Source: Lysobacter sp. Root690
Lineage (GTDB): Bacteria > Pseudomonadota > Gammaproteobacteria > Xanthomonadales > Xanthomonadaceae
NCBI RefSeq assembly: GCF_001427785.1
Contig: NZ_LMHM01000011.1
Location: forward strand, 13,050-73,080
Direction: 5' to 3'
Length of the DNA: 60,031 bases
Part shown: piece after piece, positions 46,600 through 53,400 of the stretch
How positions within the stretch are numbered: position 1 is the first letter of the stretch
Layout of the letters: every line of letters starts with the position of its first letter
Program-made: the position numbers and the translations under genes
The notes under the pieces: model-generated
Seen by the model: the letters and a program-made list of their open reading frames with translations, nothing else
The model's database searches: none
Told to the model about the DNA's origin: nothing

Positions 46600-47805
46600 A
46601 TGAATGAACCGCTGAACGACGGCCTGCACGGCCAACCGCACGCCATCGTCGAACGCGACGGCGTCCGCTACACCCTGCTGGGCACCGCGCACGTGTCGCA
46701 GGCCAGCGTCGACGCGGTCCGCGATGCGGTCGGCAGCGGCCGCTATGACGCGGTCGCGGTCGAACTCGACGCGCAGCGCCTGCAGGCGCTGACCGACCCC
46801 GACGCGCTGGCCAAGCTCGATCTGATCCAGGTGATCCGCTCGGGCAAGACCGCGCTGTTCGCCGCCAACCTGGCCCTGGCCGCGTACCAGCGCCGGCTCG
46901 CCGAGCAGCTCGGCATCGAACCGGGCGCCGAACTCAAGCGCGCGGTGCTCGAAGCGCGCCAGCGCGAACTGCCGGTGCATCTGATCGACCGCGAAGTCGG
47001 CCTGACCTTCAGGCGCGCGTCCAGCAAGCTGGGTTTCTGGGGCCGCGCCAAGCTCGGCGTCGGCTTGATCAGCGGGCTGTTCGCCGCCGATGAGGTCGGC
47101 GAGGAAGAAATCGAAAAGCTCAAGCAGGGCGACATGCTCGAATCGAGCTTCGGCGAGTTCGCCGCCGAAAGCCCGCAGTTGTACGAAACCGTGATCGCCG
47201 AGCGCGACCGCTACATGGCCGCGCGCCTGCGCGAGACCCATGGCGACGCGCGCGAAGTGCTGGCGGTAGTCGGCGCCGGCCACCTGCAAGGCCTGGCCAA
47301 ACACCTGCGCGAAGACACCCAGGATCCGGTCGAGCAGCGCACCGAACTCGAACAGGTCGCGACCAAGAGCAAGGTGCCGTGGGTGATGATCGTGATCACC
47401 AGCCTGATCCTGGCCGGCATCGCCTGGGGCTTCTGGAAAGGCGGCGTGGCGATGGGCGCGGACCTGCTGCTGCAGTGGGTGCTGTACACCGGCGGCCTGG
47501 CCGCATTGGGCTGCCTGCTGGCCGGCGGCCATCCCTTCAGCGTCATCACCGCGGCGGTGGTCGCGCCACTCAAACCGTTCCGTCCCGGCGTACCGACCGG
47601 CGCGCTCAGCGCGCTGGTCGAGGTGCATCAACGCAAGCCGGCTTACGGCGACTTCATGGCCTTGCGCGACGATGCGCAGACGCTCAAGGGTTGGTACCGC
47701 AACCGGGTGGCTCGGGTGGTGTTGAACTTCATGCTGACCAACATCGGCACCGGCATCGGCGTGTGGATCGCCGGATTCCGGATCGCCAGCAAACTGGTCG
47801 GCTGA
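46600..47805 (+). CDS. TraB/PrgY-family membrane protein
   Basis: 401 residues from the ATG at 46600. The N-terminal TraB domain (about 15-235) has the motifs YTLLGTAHVSQAS and VVGAGHLQGLAKHL and a conserved EVGLTFRRA segment. Four to five transmembrane helices follow in the C-terminal third (about 262-400). In Enterococcus PrgY/TraB the domain inactivates sex pheromone; in proteobacteria the function is unknown, and a metalloprotease-like role has been proposed. It is the nearest gene upstream of the peptide cassette, with 147 bases between its stop and the promoter, so the two are probably separate units. Confidence 0.88.
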   Translation: MNEPLNDGLHGQPHAIVERDGVRYTLLGTAHVSQASVDAVRDAVGSGRYDAVAVELDAQRLQALTDPDALAKLDLIQVIRSGKTALFAANLALAAYQRRLAEQLGIEPGAELKRAVLEARQRELPVHLIDREVGLTFRRASSKLGFWGRAKLGVGLISGLFAADEVGEEEIEKLKQGDMLESSFGEFAAESPQLYETVIAERDRYMAARLRETHGDAREVLAVVGAGHLQGLAKHLREDTQDPVEQRTELEQVATKSKVPWVMIVITSLILAGIAWGFWKGGVAMGADLLLQWVLYTGGLAALGCLLAGGHPFSVITAAVVAPLKPFRPGVPTGALSALVEVHQRKPAYGDFMALRDDAQTLKGWYRNRVARVVLNFMLTNIGTGIGVWIAGFRIASKLVG

Positions 47806-47952
47806 GGCGCGACGATCCCGGCGACGCATCGTCCATCGATGCGCTCGCCGCTCGCGACGGCGCGCCGCGGATGCGCCGATTCAGCTGAGCCATCGCGCGC
47901 GCGGCCACGGCGATAACGATTGCGCGCGCTGGCGACCTGTCAGTTTTCGCCG

Positions 47953-47981
47953 TTGACTTGGCGTTGGTGCCGCCCGATAGT
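47953..47981 (+). promoter_or_regulatory. sigma70-like promoter of the peptide cassette
   Basis: TTGACT (47953-47958) and GATAGT (47976-47981) with a 17-base spacer. Transcription would begin near 47988, which places the ATG at 48028 about 40 bases downstream and argues against the frame's earlier starts. Confidence 0.65.
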
Positions 47982-48027
47982 TCGGCACCGGATGGATCCA
48001 TCCGCGGCAGGCTACGCGCACAACGCC

Positions 48028-49254
48028 ATGGATAAGGCAAGCACCGTCACCGACAACGCGCCGGCCGCACCAGCGTCTTGCGCCGACCGTAGCGACAATC
48101 CGGCAATCGCCGTGCTGGATTCGCGATTGCCGCTGCAAGGCATCCAGATCCAGGCCTGGCCCGACGGCGAATTCCTGATAGGCAACGCCGCCGGCAAGCA
48201 CTTGGTCGCCGGCAAGGAAATCGCGCTGATCATCCGCGCGCTTTGCGCCGCGCCGGACGGCGCGCAAGCCTACGCTCGCTATGCCGCGCAAGGCGGTCGC
48301 CTGGCCGAAGCGGCGTTCCTGACGCAGGCCTCGCGCTGCACCGCCGCGCTCGCGCTGACGCCGTCGCCGGCCGCTCCGCCTCGATTGTTTTTCCGCCGCA
48401 CGGTGTTGTCGCCCGATCGCGTCGCTCCGTTCGCGAACATCGCCCGGCACGCCTTCGTGTTGCCGTGGGCCGCGCTCGGCGTGCTCGCCGCCTTGGCCGC
48501 GCCGGTGTTGGCGATAGCGGTGTTCGGCGAACGTCTGGCCGCGACCTGGCTGAGCCTGGACCAGTCCATCGCCGCGTTCGTGCTGATCCTGCTCGGCGCG
48601 GCGATCCACGAGTTCGGCCATGCCGGCGCCCTGGTGCGGCACGGCCAACCCGCCGGCGCGATCGGTGCCGGCCTGTATCTCGGCGCGATTCCGGTGTTCT
48701 ACGCCGATGTCTCGCGCGCCTGGCGCCTGAGCGTGCGCGCGCGGGTGGTGGTCAACCTCGGCGGCGTGTATTTCCAGGCGATCTATGCCACGGCGCTGAT
48801 GCTGCTCGGCGCGGTCGCCGGGTATCCGGCACTGCAGATGGCCGGCGCGCTGTCGGTGATCCTGGCGCTGACCCAGTTCATGCCGTTCGCGAGCACCGAC
48901 GGCTACTGGGTGCTGAGCGATCTGCTGCGCGAGCCGCGCCTGGGCAAGTTCGACGCCAAGCTGTTGCGCGAATGCAGGCAAGGTGACGCGGCCGGTCGCG
49001 AGGCGCGCTTGCGGCTGGCGTATCAACTTTGCAATGCCGCCGTCGTCGTCGCGATCCTGATCGTTTCCTTCCGCCACGCCTCCGGCCTGCTGCGCGCCAT
49101 CGCCGATTCCTACAGCACCGGCATCGTGTCCGACACCTTGCGGCAACCTTCGCGTTGGCTGTCGCTGGTGCTGCTTTGCTTCCTCGTCTATCAACTGCTG
49201 GCGGTGGCGCGCCGGCTCGCGAACAACGCCAGGTCACGCCGCCGGCCTGGTTGA
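48028..49254 (+). CDS. membrane M50-type metalloprotease with PqqD-like N-terminal domain
   Basis: 408 residues from the ATG at 48028; earlier in-frame starts (47920, 47992) lie before or at the transcription start. Residues 35-104 resemble a PqqD-type peptide-recognition wing (PDGEFLIGNAAGKHLVAGKEIALIIRAL followed by a helix with GAQAYARYAAQGGRLAEAAFL). Next come about six transmembrane helices. The zinc-binding motif is H194-E195-F-G-H198 in the second one, with the third ligand probably Asp291 in PFASTDGYW. Such site-2-type proteases cut within or near the membrane; relatives labelled putative peptide zinc metalloprotease, such as YydH, occur in RiPP clusters. Followed after 25 bases by two precursor-like genes. 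Confidence 0.8.
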   Translation: MDKASTVTDNAPAAPASCADRSDNPAIAVLDSRLPLQGIQIQAWPDGEFLIGNAAGKHLVAGKEIALIIRALCAAPDGAQAYARYAAQGGRLAEAAFLTQASRCTAALALTPSPAAPPRLFFRRTVLSPDRVAPFANIARHAFVLPWAALGVLAALAAPVLAIAVFGERLAATWLSLDQSIAAFVLILLGAAIHEFGHAGALVRHGQPAGAIGAGLYLGAIPVFYADVSRAWRLSVRARVVVNLGGVYFQAIYATALMLLGAVAGYPALQMAGALSVILALTQFMPFASTDGYWVLSDLLREPRLGKFDAKLLRECRQGDAAGREARLRLAYQLCNAAVVVAILIVSFRHASGLLRAIADSYSTGIVSDTLRQPSRWLSLVLLCFLVYQLLAVARRLANNARSRRRPG

Positions 49255-49279
49255 GCTCTACCCGAAGCGCGGCCTCGAA

Positions 49280-49423
49280 ATGGACTGTCCGAGCATGAAC
49301 GAAAACCTGGATACCGATCTGAAACTGGAAGCGCTGGACGAACGCCTGGAGTTCGCGCCGGCGTGGTTGTGCGAGAACGCCGAGTGGTTCACCGATTTCT
49401 GGGGCCTGGACTGCACCCAGTAA
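49280..49423 (+). CDS. candidate precursor peptide 1 (47 aa)
   Basis: A 47-residue frame starting MDCPSMNENLDTDLKLEALD and continuing ERLEFAPAWLCEN. The C-terminus is AEWFTDFWGLDCTQ. The start at 49280 is chosen over the in-frame ATG at 49295 because the paralogue also starts MD-x-P. It lies 25 bases after the metalloprotease gene on the same strand. Its conserved first part and variable, aromatic-rich tail with a C-terminal Cys-x-Gln look like a leader plus core. Residues Cys31 and Cys45 match the two cysteines of the paralogue; Cys3 is extra. No database comparison has been possible. Confidence 0.75.
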   Translation: MDCPSMNENLDTDLKLEALDERLEFAPAWLCENAEWFTDFWGLDCTQ

Positions 49424-49434
49424 CAATCGCCGAC

Positions 49435-49483
49435 GCTGTCCGTGCCGGCGTTGCATGAACCCCGAACGCCGCCCACGGACAGC
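49435..49483 (+). other. intercistronic stem-loop between the two peptide genes
   Basis: GCTGTCCGTG (49435-49444) pairs with CACGGACAGC (49474-49483), a perfect 10-bp stem. After a small asymmetric bulge, CGGCGTT (49446-49452) pairs with AACGCCG (49465-49471), leaving a 12-base loop. It occupies most of the gap between peptide 1 and peptide 2. Possible roles are RNA processing, partial termination or different dosage of the two peptides. Confidence 0.7.
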
Positions 49484-49498
49484 CGATGCTCAACCGTC

Positions 49499-49515
49499 GC
49501 GGCCACGATGGCCGC
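49499..49515 (+). other. small hairpin before peptide 2
   Basis: GCGGCCA-CGA-TGGCCGC is a perfect 7-bp stem with a 3-base loop, 22 bases upstream of the peptide 2 start and near its ribosome binding site. Its role is unclear. Confidence 0.5.
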
Positions 49516-49536
49516 GGCCAACAGCGGAGAACGAAG

Positions 49537-49665
49537 ATGGACGCACCGATCGACAGCAACGAACTGAAGCTGGAAGAACTCGACGAACGCCTCGAGTTCG
49601 CCCCGGCCTGGGTGTGCGAGCACTTCCCGATCTACGAGTATTTCGGTGGCAGCTGCGTCCAGTAA
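49537..49665 (+). CDS. candidate precursor peptide 2 (42 aa)
   Basis: A 42-residue frame with GGAG at 49526-49529 and 7 bases spacing. Begins MDAPIDSNELKLEELDERLE and ends FAPAWVCEHFPIYEYFGGSCVQ in shorter pieces. Alignment with peptide 1 shows LKLE-x-LDERLEFAPAW-[LV]-CE conserved, then divergent residues, then G-x-x-C-x-Q at the stop. The two cysteines (27 and 40) are 12 residues apart, against 13 in peptide 1. Acidic leader, aromatic tail: the pattern of a RiPP precursor or a small secreted disulfide peptide. A hairpin at 49697-49725 follows as a likely transcript end. Confidence 0.78.
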   Translation: MDAPIDSNELKLEELDERLEFAPAWVCEHFPIYEYFGGSCVQ

Positions 49666-49696
49666 TCACTGGCCGATACGCCGGGTAACATCGCGG

Positions 49697-49725
49697 AGCG
49701 GGATCGGCTCCACGCCGATCCCGCT
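49697..49725 (+). terminator. 11-bp perfect hairpin after peptide 2
   Basis: AGCGGGATCGG (49697-49707), loop CTCCACG, CCGATCCCGCT (49715-49725), with TCC after it. It lies 32 bases after the peptide 2 stop codon and 57 bases before the DsbA-like gene. It would at least partly separate peptide and thioredoxin-type expression. The missing T-run makes it a weaker intrinsic terminator. Confidence 0.65.
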
Positions 49726-49781
49726 TCCGATGCGGCAACGCGGCAATACGGATCGGCGGACGCGGTCGCGTCCTGCCTCGC

Positions 49782-50456
49782 ATGCGACGTAACGCACGGG
49801 ACCGAATCTTGAACGCAGCAAACACACTCCGCCGCGGGCCGCTTCATCCAATTCGACTGGCGCGGCTGACGGGTATCGGCCTGGCGGTCGCCGCGCTGGT
49901 CGCCTGCGGGCCGCAACCTCCCGCCGGGGTCGCCCAGATCGATGGCGACTATGCGGTGGTGTCGCGGCTGCGACCGCATTCGCTGCAGCGGGTGAGGATC
50001 GAGGTCGCCATCAGTTTCCACTGCCCCGCCTGCAAGCGTTTCCAACCCAGCCTGGATACGCTCGCGGCGAAGTACGGCGAGCGTCTGAGCATCGAGCAGA
50101 CCGCGATGACGCCGCGCTCAGGCTCGGGCCGTCCCGAGCGCCTGTTCCTGCTCTCCAAGCGCGCGGGCCTGGGGCCCGCCGCGCGCGACGCGCTGTATCG
50201 CGCCCGCTTCGACCTGAAGCAGGACATCGAACAAGACGCCGTGCTCACCGGCATAGCCCGCCAGATCGGCCTGCCGCCTGCGCTGCTGGCGCAGCTCGAC
50301 AGCGCCGAACTCAAGCGCGATCAGGCGTCGATCGACGCGCGCACACGCGCTTTCGCCGCATACACGCCCAGCATCCTGGTCGAAGACCAGTTGCTGGTCG
50401 ATGCCGACGCCGCGCAGATCGCGCGCGTGGTCAACGGCCTGTTGCCAAGCCGCTGA
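49782..50456 (+). CDS. DsbA-like thioredoxin-fold lipoprotein
   Basis: 224 residues from the ATG at 49782; a TTG at 49809 is an alternative. The signal peptide ends with ALVAC, lipidated Cys42. The thioredoxin-fold domain has the redox centre C81-P-A-C84 in ISFHCPACKRFQPS, the cis-proline loop TPSILV near residue 191, and the intervening helical insertion of the DsbA group. Such proteins oxidise or isomerise disulfides in the periplasm. Its place directly after two-cysteine peptides suggests that it oxidises them, which is an inference. It converges with the efflux operon, with 10 bases between stops. Confidence 0.88.
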   Translation: MRRNARDRILNAANTLRRGPLHPIRLARLTGIGLAVAALVACGPQPPAGVAQIDGDYAVVSRLRPHSLQRVRIEVAISFHCPACKRFQPSLDTLAAKYGERLSIEQTAMTPRSGSGRPERLFLLSKRAGLGPAARDALYRARFDLKQDIEQDAVLTGIARQIGLPPALLAQLDSAELKRDQASIDARTRAFAAYTPSILVEDQLLVDADAAQIARVVNGLLPSR

Positions 50457-50466
50457 CCCGCGACGC

Positions 50467-53400
50467 TCAACCCGCCGCTTCGGCCATGCCGCCGGCGTTC
50501 GCGCGCGAACCGCGCGCGCGCCGCACCAAGGCCGAGGTGCCGGCGCGCATATCGTCGAGGATGCCGTAGATCGTCGGCAGGAACAGCAGGCTGACGACGG
50601 TGGAGAACGCCAGGCCGCCGGCCACCGCGCGCGCCATCGGCGAGTACGCCAGGCCGCCCAGCACCACCGTATCGCTCAGCGAAATCGGCACCATCGCCAG
50701 GATCGCGGTGCCCATGGTCATCATGATCGGGCGCAGACGCTCGCGGCTGCCCTCAACCAATGCCTCGTTGCGCGACATGCCGCGCCTGCGCAGGTTGTTG
50801 ATGTGCTCGACCATGACGATGCCGTTGTTCACCACCACCCCCATCAGCACCAGGATGCCGATGAAGGCCATCACCGTGAACGAGCTGCCGGTCAGCCAGA
50901 ACAGCCAGAACACGCCGAAGATCGAGAACACCACGCAGCTCATGATCGCTGCGGGGAACAGCAACGATTCGAACACCGCCGCCATCACCACGTAGATCAT
51001 CACCAGCGCCAGCACCAGGTTGATCATCATCTGCTTGCCGGCGTCGTCGTCGCGTTCGAACGAACTGCCGTCGAAGCTGTAGCTGTAGCCGGCCGGGAAC
51101 GACACCTTCTTGAGCGTTTCCTCCATCGCCTTGCGCGCATCGGGCGTGGTCGCCTTGCCGTTGAGGCTGGCCAGCACGGTCAGCGTGGTCTGTCGGTTGT
51201 TGCGATTGATCTGGCTCGCGGTCGGGCGCACGTTGACGTCGACCATCGCCAGCAAGGGCACGCTGCGGCCGTCGCTGGAACGCACGGTGAACTCGGCCAG
51301 ATTCTCGATGCCGTAGCTCTCCGCGCCGGCGAAACGCGCCCACACCGGCACCTCGGTATCGCCGCGCTGGAAGTCGCGCAACTGGGCGCCGCGCAGCGAC
51401 AGGCCGACGAAGCGCGAAACTTCCTCGACGCTGAAACCGAACGATGCCGCGCGCTCGCGATCCACCTTCACGTTGAGCTCGGTATTGCGGTCGCCCACGT
51501 CCACGCGCACATCGCGCAGTTCGGGCCGGCGCGCGAGCATCGGCACGATGTCGTTGGCCAGTTCGCTCAGGGTTTCGGTGGAGTCGCCGACCAGTTGCAC
51601 CTGCACGTTGTTGCCGCCGCTCTGGGCGCTGCCCTCGTCCTGGCCCATGCTGATCTCGGCCTTGGCCGATTTCGGCATCGCCTTGGCGATCGCGTCGACC
51701 ACCGGCTTGGTGTTCTTGACCTCGTTCTCGTGGAACTGCAGGCGGGTGCCGGCTTCGCTGCCCTGCTCGCTGAAGAACGAATAGATCTGCTTGATGTGGT
51801 ACTGCTTGCGGTGTTCCTCGAGGAAACGCTCGGTCTTGAGGATCTCCATCGACATCTGCTCGCGGGTGTAGCTGCCCTTCCAGTGGTACTGGATGAAAGC
51901 CTCCTTGCCGCCCTCGTTGCCGAACATGTCGAACTTGGTCTGGGTCATCGGCACCAGGCTGAGCGCCACCACCAGGACGATGCCGAGCACGCTCAGGCCC
52001 CGATGCTCCAGGGTCCAGCGCAGGAAGCGCGCATACACGCGCTGCAGGCGCGGGATCAGGCCGGTGGTGGTGTTGACCGCAGGCGGCGTTTTCAGGCGCG
52101 CGGAGATCATCGGGATCAGGCTGACCGCGACCAGCCACGAGGCCAGCAGCGACACCGAGATGGTGATCGCGATCTGCGACATGAAGATGCTGATGTCGTT
52201 GGTCTCGCCGATCAGGTTCGGCAGAAACACGATGCAGTGGCACAGCGTGCCCGCCGACAAGGCGATGGCGACGTGGCGGGTGCCCAGGATCGAGGCCAGT
52301 TGCGGCTGATCGGGCATCTTCTCGCGTTCCTGATAGATGCTCTCGACCACCACCACCGCGTTGTCCACCAGCATGCCGACCGCGAGCAACAGGCCCATCA
52401 GCGACAGCACGTTGAGGGTGACGCCGACGAAATGCATCAGCCCGAGCGTCATCACGAAACAGATCGGAATGGCCAGGGTCACCATCAAGGTCGACGGCCA
52501 ATGGCGTAGGAAGAAGAACAACACCGCCACCGACAGCAGCAGGCCGATCGCGCCGGCCTCGGCCAGTTCCAGCAAGGAACTGGTCACGTCCTCGCCCTGG
52601 TTTTGCACCACCTTGATTTCAATGTTGCTCAGCGCCGGCTGGGCGCGGATCGCCTCGACCTCGGCCAGCGCCAGCTTCGCCACCTCCACCAGGTTGGCGC
52701 TGCGCTCCTTGTAGATGTCCAGGCCGATCGCCGGACGACCGTCCAGGCGCCGGCCGGTTTCCAGGCGCGCGGGCTTGAGGCGCACGTCCGCGATCGCGCC
52801 CAACTTCAGGCCATTGGTGTTGATGACCAGGTTGCGGAACTGTTCCAGATCGGCCACCTGGCCGATCGGCTGAACCCGCAGACGGCGCCCGCCGTCTTCG
52901 ATTTCACCGGCGGAAATCGAGAAATTCAGCGCCTGCAGGCTCTTGGTCAGGGTGTTGAGATCCACCCCGTGCGCGACCATGCGGTCGGGCAGGATCGCGA
53001 TCTCGACCTCGCTCGGCGCCGCGCCGCCGATCTCGACCTTGGCCACGCCCGGGATGCGTTCGAGCCGGCGCTTGAACTCGCGGTCGATCAGGTCGTACTC
53101 GCGACTCAGATCCATGTCGCCGGCCAGGCGCACCTGCAGGATCGCCTGGTCGCCGCTGGACCACTTGAACACGAAGTAGCGCTGGAAGCCCTCGGGCAGA
53201 TCGTCGACGATCGCGTCGATGCGCTCGCGCGCCTCCGAGGCCGCGATGGCGATATCGCGGTCCCAGTCCTTGAACTCCATCTGGATGGTGGCCGAATCCG
53301 AGCTCGCGCTGCCGCGCATGCTCTTGATCCCGGTCATCGTCGCCAAGGCCTCTTCGGCCGGGCGCAGGATGGTGCGTTCGACCTCTTCCGGCGTGGAGCC

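Follow-up and report, generated by a model that had tools for sequence, protein, structure and literature searches.

Four plus-strand genes in the genome of Lysobacter sp. Root690 encode an M50-type membrane protease, two paralogous short peptides (here denoted A and B) and a DsbA-like lipoprotein. They are located in a stretch of 60,031 nucleotides of contig NZ_LMHM01000011.1 (the window; G+C content 66.8%). The four genes are real: their open reading frames (ORFs), their motifs and the preservation of all four frames in a second species agree with the genes and coordinates of an original prediction, which was made from the letters of the window. On balance we favor the view that they form a minimal maturation cassette resembling those for ribosomally synthesized and post-translationally modified peptides (RiPPs), in which the protease recognizes and removes a leader and the lipoprotein helps to close a disulfide between two cysteines (Cys-x12/13-Cys). 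The four-gene cassette is rare, and it looks like a reduced relative of established pathways to peptide natural products.

Precursor-like peptides beside short M50 proteases

Alignment of peptides A and B demonstrated a constant front and a diverging tail, and the conserved leader with a variable, cysteine-containing tail that had been proposed is thereby upheld. The segment LKLE-x-LDERLEF is followed by an aromatic, acidic tail of 19-22 residues, which ends in Gln in both peptides and carries two cysteines, 13 residues apart in peptide A and 12 in peptide B. By eye, neither peptide contains a long hydrophobic stretch. Translation of peptide A may begin instead at its second Met (49295), the position that corresponds to the peptide B start in the alignment.

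A second copy of the cassette is present in genome G116 of the same genus, where a 10-kb region aligns with the window at 92.8% identity and all four frames are kept. Peptide A differs between the two species by four synonymous changes and one nonsynonymous change and peptide B by eight and three, which gives ratios of nonsynonymous to synonymous substitution rates (dN/dS) of 0.05 and 0.07, each from few sites; for the protease, the lipoprotein and the neighboring TraB gene the values are 0.26, 0.23 and 0.04, respectively. Judged by these ratios, which rest on few changes, both peptides are under purifying selection. The original prediction had staked itself on a synonymous bias in the peptide genes, and such a bias is what the comparison gave.

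Short ORFs with (L)ExRFEME precede two related proteases; from these and the window peptides we derived a leader-like motif, LExR[LFIV]E[FLM], and counted it uniformly at 21 short M50 protease loci, scanning about 370 kb. At 15 of the 21 loci, at least one short motif ORF lies within 2 kb of the protease and on its strand. Within this distance there were 21 motif ORFs on the same strand and none on the opposite strand, and a cysteine follows the motif in all 21; at two of the 15 loci, another four motif ORFs are more than 2 kb away and seem to belong to the family as well. Homologous short ORFs beside related proteases, on which the original prediction had also made itself depend, are thus found in other genomes. 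A leader profile built from 15 other precursors placed peptide B first and peptide A second among the 551 window ORFs (E-values 1.3e-4 and 4.7e-4; next ORF 0.67), a ranking that is partly circular, as the window peptides had themselves served to define the motif. Less circular evidence for the association of precursors and proteases is provided by the strand bias and by genome G1014, whose three precursors were detected with the motif already fixed.

The layout closest to that of the window was found in G492 (locus L057), where the protease is followed by a 49-residue peptide with two cysteines 12 residues apart; this locus has no DsbA-like gene. After the peptide, at L057:9406-10062, lies a gene for a DUF2987-like secreted-type protein, a weak match (E 0.0037, below cutoff). 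At L160:8105-8936 we noticed that a short M50 protease, together with a gene of about 248 aa, is preceded by a tandem array of three paralogous precursors with LESRLEM; in position and size the 248-aa gene is similar to the one that follows the protease at L011 and L012.

The protease, its N-terminal domain and the lipoprotein

Hydrophobic stretches were detected in the protease by Kyte-Doolittle analysis, and His194, Glu195 and His198 of its HEFGH motif, as well as Asp291, are invariant in 16/16 aligned proteases. A membrane protein with HExxH and a distal Asp belongs to the M50/site-2 protease (S2P) clan, and the membrane metalloprotease of the original prediction is confirmed to this extent. 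With Pfam PF02163 the protein scored 13 bits, under the gathering score of 27.2. The nearest NCBIfam model was NF041824 (daptide_HExxH; 70.8 bits, cutoff 300), and NF058609 (YydH/LiaK) gave 29.1 bits (cutoff 225); because these scores are far under the cutoffs, we regard the protease as a distant relative of the daptide and YydH/LiaK proteases. Sequence searches of the PDB with the protease returned nothing useful, and a search of plasmids returned two distant partial matches only. An AlphaFold2 model of the whole protein, made from a two-row alignment with one row from locus L008, had a predicted local distance difference test score (pLDDT) of 38.8; it was not used and does not confirm the fold.

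A search of genome contigs for related loci yielded one distant HlyD-type relative, L008. Short related proteases are present in 7/297 genomes of the family, long and short forms together in 37/397 genomes of the order, and mostly long forms, in frames of about 700 aa, in 32/369 genomes of the class. The long forms were taken to be fused to HlyD, like L008, and were set aside; a loose precursor scan there gave one noise-like match.

To the N-terminus of the protease we assign a candidate RiPP recognition element (RRE). The N-termini of the 16 proteases, taken as a family profile, matched a PqqD profile, built from 30 domains in related genomes, with a score of 29.4, against 9.8 for the reversed control and at most 13.8 in 60 column shuffles. 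Pfam PqqD matches one of the 16 members (L014), and without it the score was 30.6. By hhalign, the window N-terminus matched the other N-termini weakly (score 18.8, E 0.026). Modelling of the N-terminus, which the original prediction had suggested as a check for the first 104 residues, gave for residues 1-125 the order strand-strand-strand-helix-helix-helix, which fits an RRE; the AlphaFold2 model is of low confidence (pLDDT 51.7), and of its 316 PDB matches none was at E <= 0.001. An RRE is therefore likely by family, and for the window protease alone it is a candidate only. The PqqD-like domain proposed earlier accordingly holds as a family-level match and is undetectable in the single protein. 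M50 is not mentioned in the available passages of the RRE literature.

The lipoprotein combines a CxxC motif, a cis-Pro site (TPS) and a match to Pfam DSBA of 26.2 bits, above the cutoff of 25.6. These features are those of a DsbA-like thioredoxin fold, in line with the oxidase proposed from the sequence; the match to a solved DsbA-type structure, 4k2d, is weak (E 0.0056).

Proposed maturation, related systems and alternatives

Daptides and TMcins are the nearest known systems, and the cassette fits neither definition. Daptide clusters encode several short precursors and an intramembrane site-2 protease with an RRE fused to its N-terminus; recognition of the leader ELExMEAP by another RRE protein depends most on its Leu and Met (PMC10036551). 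The cassette is similar in its site-2 protease with an N-terminal RRE (a candidate here), its multiple precursors and its leader, LDERLEFAP (PMC10036551). However, daptides end in an invariant Thr, whereas the cassette tails end in Gln and have two cysteines, and of the alcohol dehydrogenase, aminotransferase, methyltransferase and RRE accessory protein of daptides none adjoins the cassette, judged from its ORFs (PMC10036551). Given the low NF041824 score, the lack of a C-terminal Thr and the accessory genes that do not adjoin, membership of the daptides was rejected.

In TMcins, the leader is taken off by an S2P-clan protease, and in staphylococcal clusters the one disulfide required for activity, between two conserved cysteines, is formed by a DsbA-like protein (PMC13252029). 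The cassette genes carry the motifs of an S2P-clan protease and a DSBA match, and their products may act in a comparable way on a peptide with two cysteines. TMcins differ in having a transmembrane helix in the precursor, a DUF3267 protease, an ABC transporter, an escort protein and Gram-positive hosts (PMC13252029); peptides A and B, as read from their sequences, have no such helix, and no transporter adjoins them. Epipeptides rely on an M50 membrane protease (YydH/LiaK, EpeP) that matures and perhaps exports a short peptide, and the cassette resembles them in having an M50 membrane protease that would act on a short peptide (PMC10885120). Unlike in epipeptides, no epimerase-type radical-SAM gene adjoins, and on its NF058609 score the protease was rejected as a member of the YydH/LiaK proteases. 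EpeP, thought to cleave and export, may by analogy be a partial precedent for export without a linked transporter (PMC10885120). In pearlins (TglG, TmoG), too, a membrane M50 protease acts on a peptide from a dedicated cluster, but it releases a single modified C-terminal amino acid, and a peptide-aminoacyl ligase gene was not seen at the cassette (PMC10885120). By analogy, the cassette may work like the protease arm of daptides joined to the disulfide arm of TMcins. In the open-license PubMed Central literature we found no description of the cassette or of an LExRLE leader in this bacterial order, which agrees with the earlier statement that the arrangement has no name, although its close relatives, daptides and TMcins, are published.

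We infer binding, cut site, export, disulfide, activity and biological role as follows. Peptides A and B would be precursors, with LKLE-x-LDERLEF as the recognition segment (DLKLEALDERLEF), to which the RRE-like N-terminal domain would bind on the cytoplasmic side. The zinc site within the membrane would then cut close behind this segment, probably after ...EFAP by analogy with daptides, because LDERLEFAP looks like a variant of the daptide ELExMEAP; this would leave the tails AWLCENAEWFTDFWGLDCTQ and AWVCEHFPIYEYFGGSCVQ. The freed tail would exit on the periplasmic side, via the protease or an unlinked system, and the outer-envelope DsbA-like lipoprotein would close one disulfide. The presumed order is thus recognition, intramembrane cut, periplasmic release and disulfide closure, and the role of the product may be antagonism or signalling.

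This route is favored by the association at 15/21 loci, the leader profile, the G492 layout, the radical-SAM neighbors of related loci, the selection on the peptides and the TMcin precedent, and also by the protease being nearest to the daptide and epipeptide protease models, though far below their cutoffs. Several observations weigh against it. Product, transcript and cleavage are predicted from the genes, and the adjoining ORFs include no transporter or immunity gene. Six of the 21 short M50 loci have no motif ORF (L013, L014, L095, L161, L162, L163; in L161 and L162 the protease frame lacks the DGY motif, and L095 and L163 are near contig ends). Peptide A, if started at 49280, would carry a third cysteine, Cys3. 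The window protease and its orthologue alone gave no match to PqqD (score 9.8, E 0.45), and by hmmsearch the window N-terminus matched the other N-termini no better than its own shuffles (E 1.5). Finally, among 15 other short M50 loci that were scanned, not one has a lipoprotein relative; because of this absence the DsbA-like gene is not part of the wider short-M50 family, and the expectation that the peptides would always sit beside both protease and DsbA gene failed, the latter being confined to the two full-cassette genomes. Of the earlier proposal that the genes make, cut and disulfide-bond a peptide, the leader-tail peptides, the protease, the oxidase and the short ORFs elsewhere stand, while the DsbA gene is not general and the RRE is supported at the family level only.

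Tailoring genes were surveyed among selected neighbors of related loci. LpxL-like acyltransferase genes (Pfam PF03279, above cutoff) lie beside five of them (L012, L052, L053, L054, L056), where short M50 proteases come with LExR[LFIV]E precursors, and it is possible that the peptides there are lipidated. Radical-SAM genes were confirmed at L050 and L056, nearest to RiPP maturase models and below NCBIfam cutoffs, and L050 also has a cupin-like gene. We also observed that, at L049-L051 and L010, precursors ending in RCNGRC adjoin radical-SAM-type genes and a short M50 protease; among these, radical-SAM identity was confirmed by search for L050 only. The window cassette is adjoined by no radical-SAM, LpxL-like acyltransferase or cupin gene. 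Since RiPP pathways with distant enzymes are known, and related loci do have radical-SAM or LpxL-like genes beside the protease, the Cys or aromatic residues of peptides A and B might be modified by an enzyme encoded elsewhere, such as a radical-SAM protein; the cassette would then be incomplete and the disulfide not the main modification. We consider this unlikely: despite the conserved block no such gene adjoins in either species (no whole-genome search for unlinked RiPP enzymes was made), and the one extra gene, the DsbA-like gene, fits a two-cysteine tail.

Site-2 proteases often act in regulated proteolysis, and it is conceivable that the short proteins act as regulators, either membrane-associated or cytoplasmic, and are degraded in this manner within the membrane, with the lipoprotein serving general oxidative folding. 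The lack of a linked exporter or immunity gene would suit such a system, but the precursors are duplicated, with a constant front and a diverging tail that recur at other loci, the neighbors at other loci are enzymes of the peptide-maturation type, and there is no sigma or anti-sigma gene within the four-gene block, which together make regulation quite improbable.

Returning to maturation of peptides A and B by the cassette, a broader proposal, which is more tentative, is that of an unnamed RiPP platform built on the LExRLE leader together with a short RRE-like M50 protease. It would occur mainly in the host order, with tailoring genes that differ between loci (for radical-SAM, LpxL-like acyltransferase or cupin proteins). 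The window cassette would be its minimal form, with the releasing protease as the only leader-guided enzyme and one disulfide, made by a dedicated lipoprotein, as the only modification. If the four genes do mature peptides A and B as proposed, they would be a small, genetically tractable system in which to ask whether an RRE-like domain can guide an intramembrane protease to a peptide when no other enzyme modifies it, and they would be the Gram-negative equivalent of the TMcins with their disulfide bond. Precursors that gene finders miss could also be sought with the wider leader motif, and whether the peptides are lipidated at the five loci with LpxL-like genes is a separate question.

Layout of the cassette and its site in the genus

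Table 1. Features of the cassette, in window coordinates.
Feature	Position	Strand	Remarks
Sigma-70-like promoter	47953..47981	+	TTGACT-17-GATAGT; ~47 bases upstream of protease start
M50-type (site-2-protease-like) membrane metalloprotease	48028..49254	+	408 aa; HEFGH 194-198, DGYW 291-294
Candidate RRE (PqqD-like), protease N-terminal domain	48028..48402	+	residues 1-125; family-level PqqD profile match
Peptide A precursor	49280..49423	+	47 aa, or 42 aa from 49295; LDERLEF; tail APAWLCENAEWFTDFWGLDCTQ
Stem-loop 3' of peptide A	49435..49483	+	region fold z -3.6
Peptide B precursor	49537..49665	+	42 aa; LDERLEF; tail APAWVCEHFPIYEYFGGSCVQ
Stem-loop 3' of peptide B	49695..49727	+	14 pairs, without T-run; region fold z -3.8
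DsbA-like lipoprotein	49782..50456	+	224 aa; lipobox LVAC ending at Cys42; CPAC 81-84; TPS 195-197

The full cassette is present in 2/20 genomes of the host genus. The protease was found in these two genomes, the peptide profile matched the same two only, with two copies in each (an extra match at E 0.58 was taken as noise), and a lipoprotein orthologue of at least 92% identity is likewise restricted to them; lipoprotein relatives at 25-33% occur in four more genomes, 6/20 in all (E 1e-5). The flanking genes, named by recognition of their sequences and not by family search, are presumably TraB-like and RND, the latter on the opposite strand. As originally stated, no radical-SAM, YcaO, LanM or ABC-transporter gene is found among the window ORFs adjoining the cassette.

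TraB is present in all 20 genomes of the genus. In seven, RND directly follows it without the cassette, and the ends of their tblastn matches are 268-595 bases apart. A transposase-like gene separates the two in G297 and other genes do so in G283 and G138; we take the genes between TraB and RND to be an insertion sequence (IS) transposase and ExeA/GspB-like. In five genomes RND is not within the 1.5 kb examined beside TraB, and in G252, G205 and G090 it is about 3 kb further from TraB. Because its contents differ among these genomes, the TraB-RND interval (47805-50467 in the window), which may be empty or hold a transposase-like gene, other genes or the cassette, is a variable site, which makes the cassette an accessory element. 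Slightly less probable again than regulation is that the protease and peptides belong together with the DsbA-like gene as a chance neighbor, as its absence from the other short M50 loci and the stem-loop and 116 bases between peptide B and the lipoprotein gene could suggest, since strand and order are the same in two species, the close orthologue occurs in these two genomes of the genus only, four others have only the 25-33% relatives, and the whole insert occupies a site that is empty in 7/20 genomes.

The putative promoter was found once, against 0.2 expected in shuffles, and both hexamers and the 17-base spacer are identical in the G116 copy. Alignment with G116 further showed that one stem pair is broken in the stem-loop after peptide A, and that in the stem-loop after peptide B the inner 10 pairs are identical, with flanking bases gained or lost. 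If the protease started at 47920, the promoter would fall within the gene; 48028 is the likely start, because an ATG near 47992 is followed by an in-frame stop in G116.

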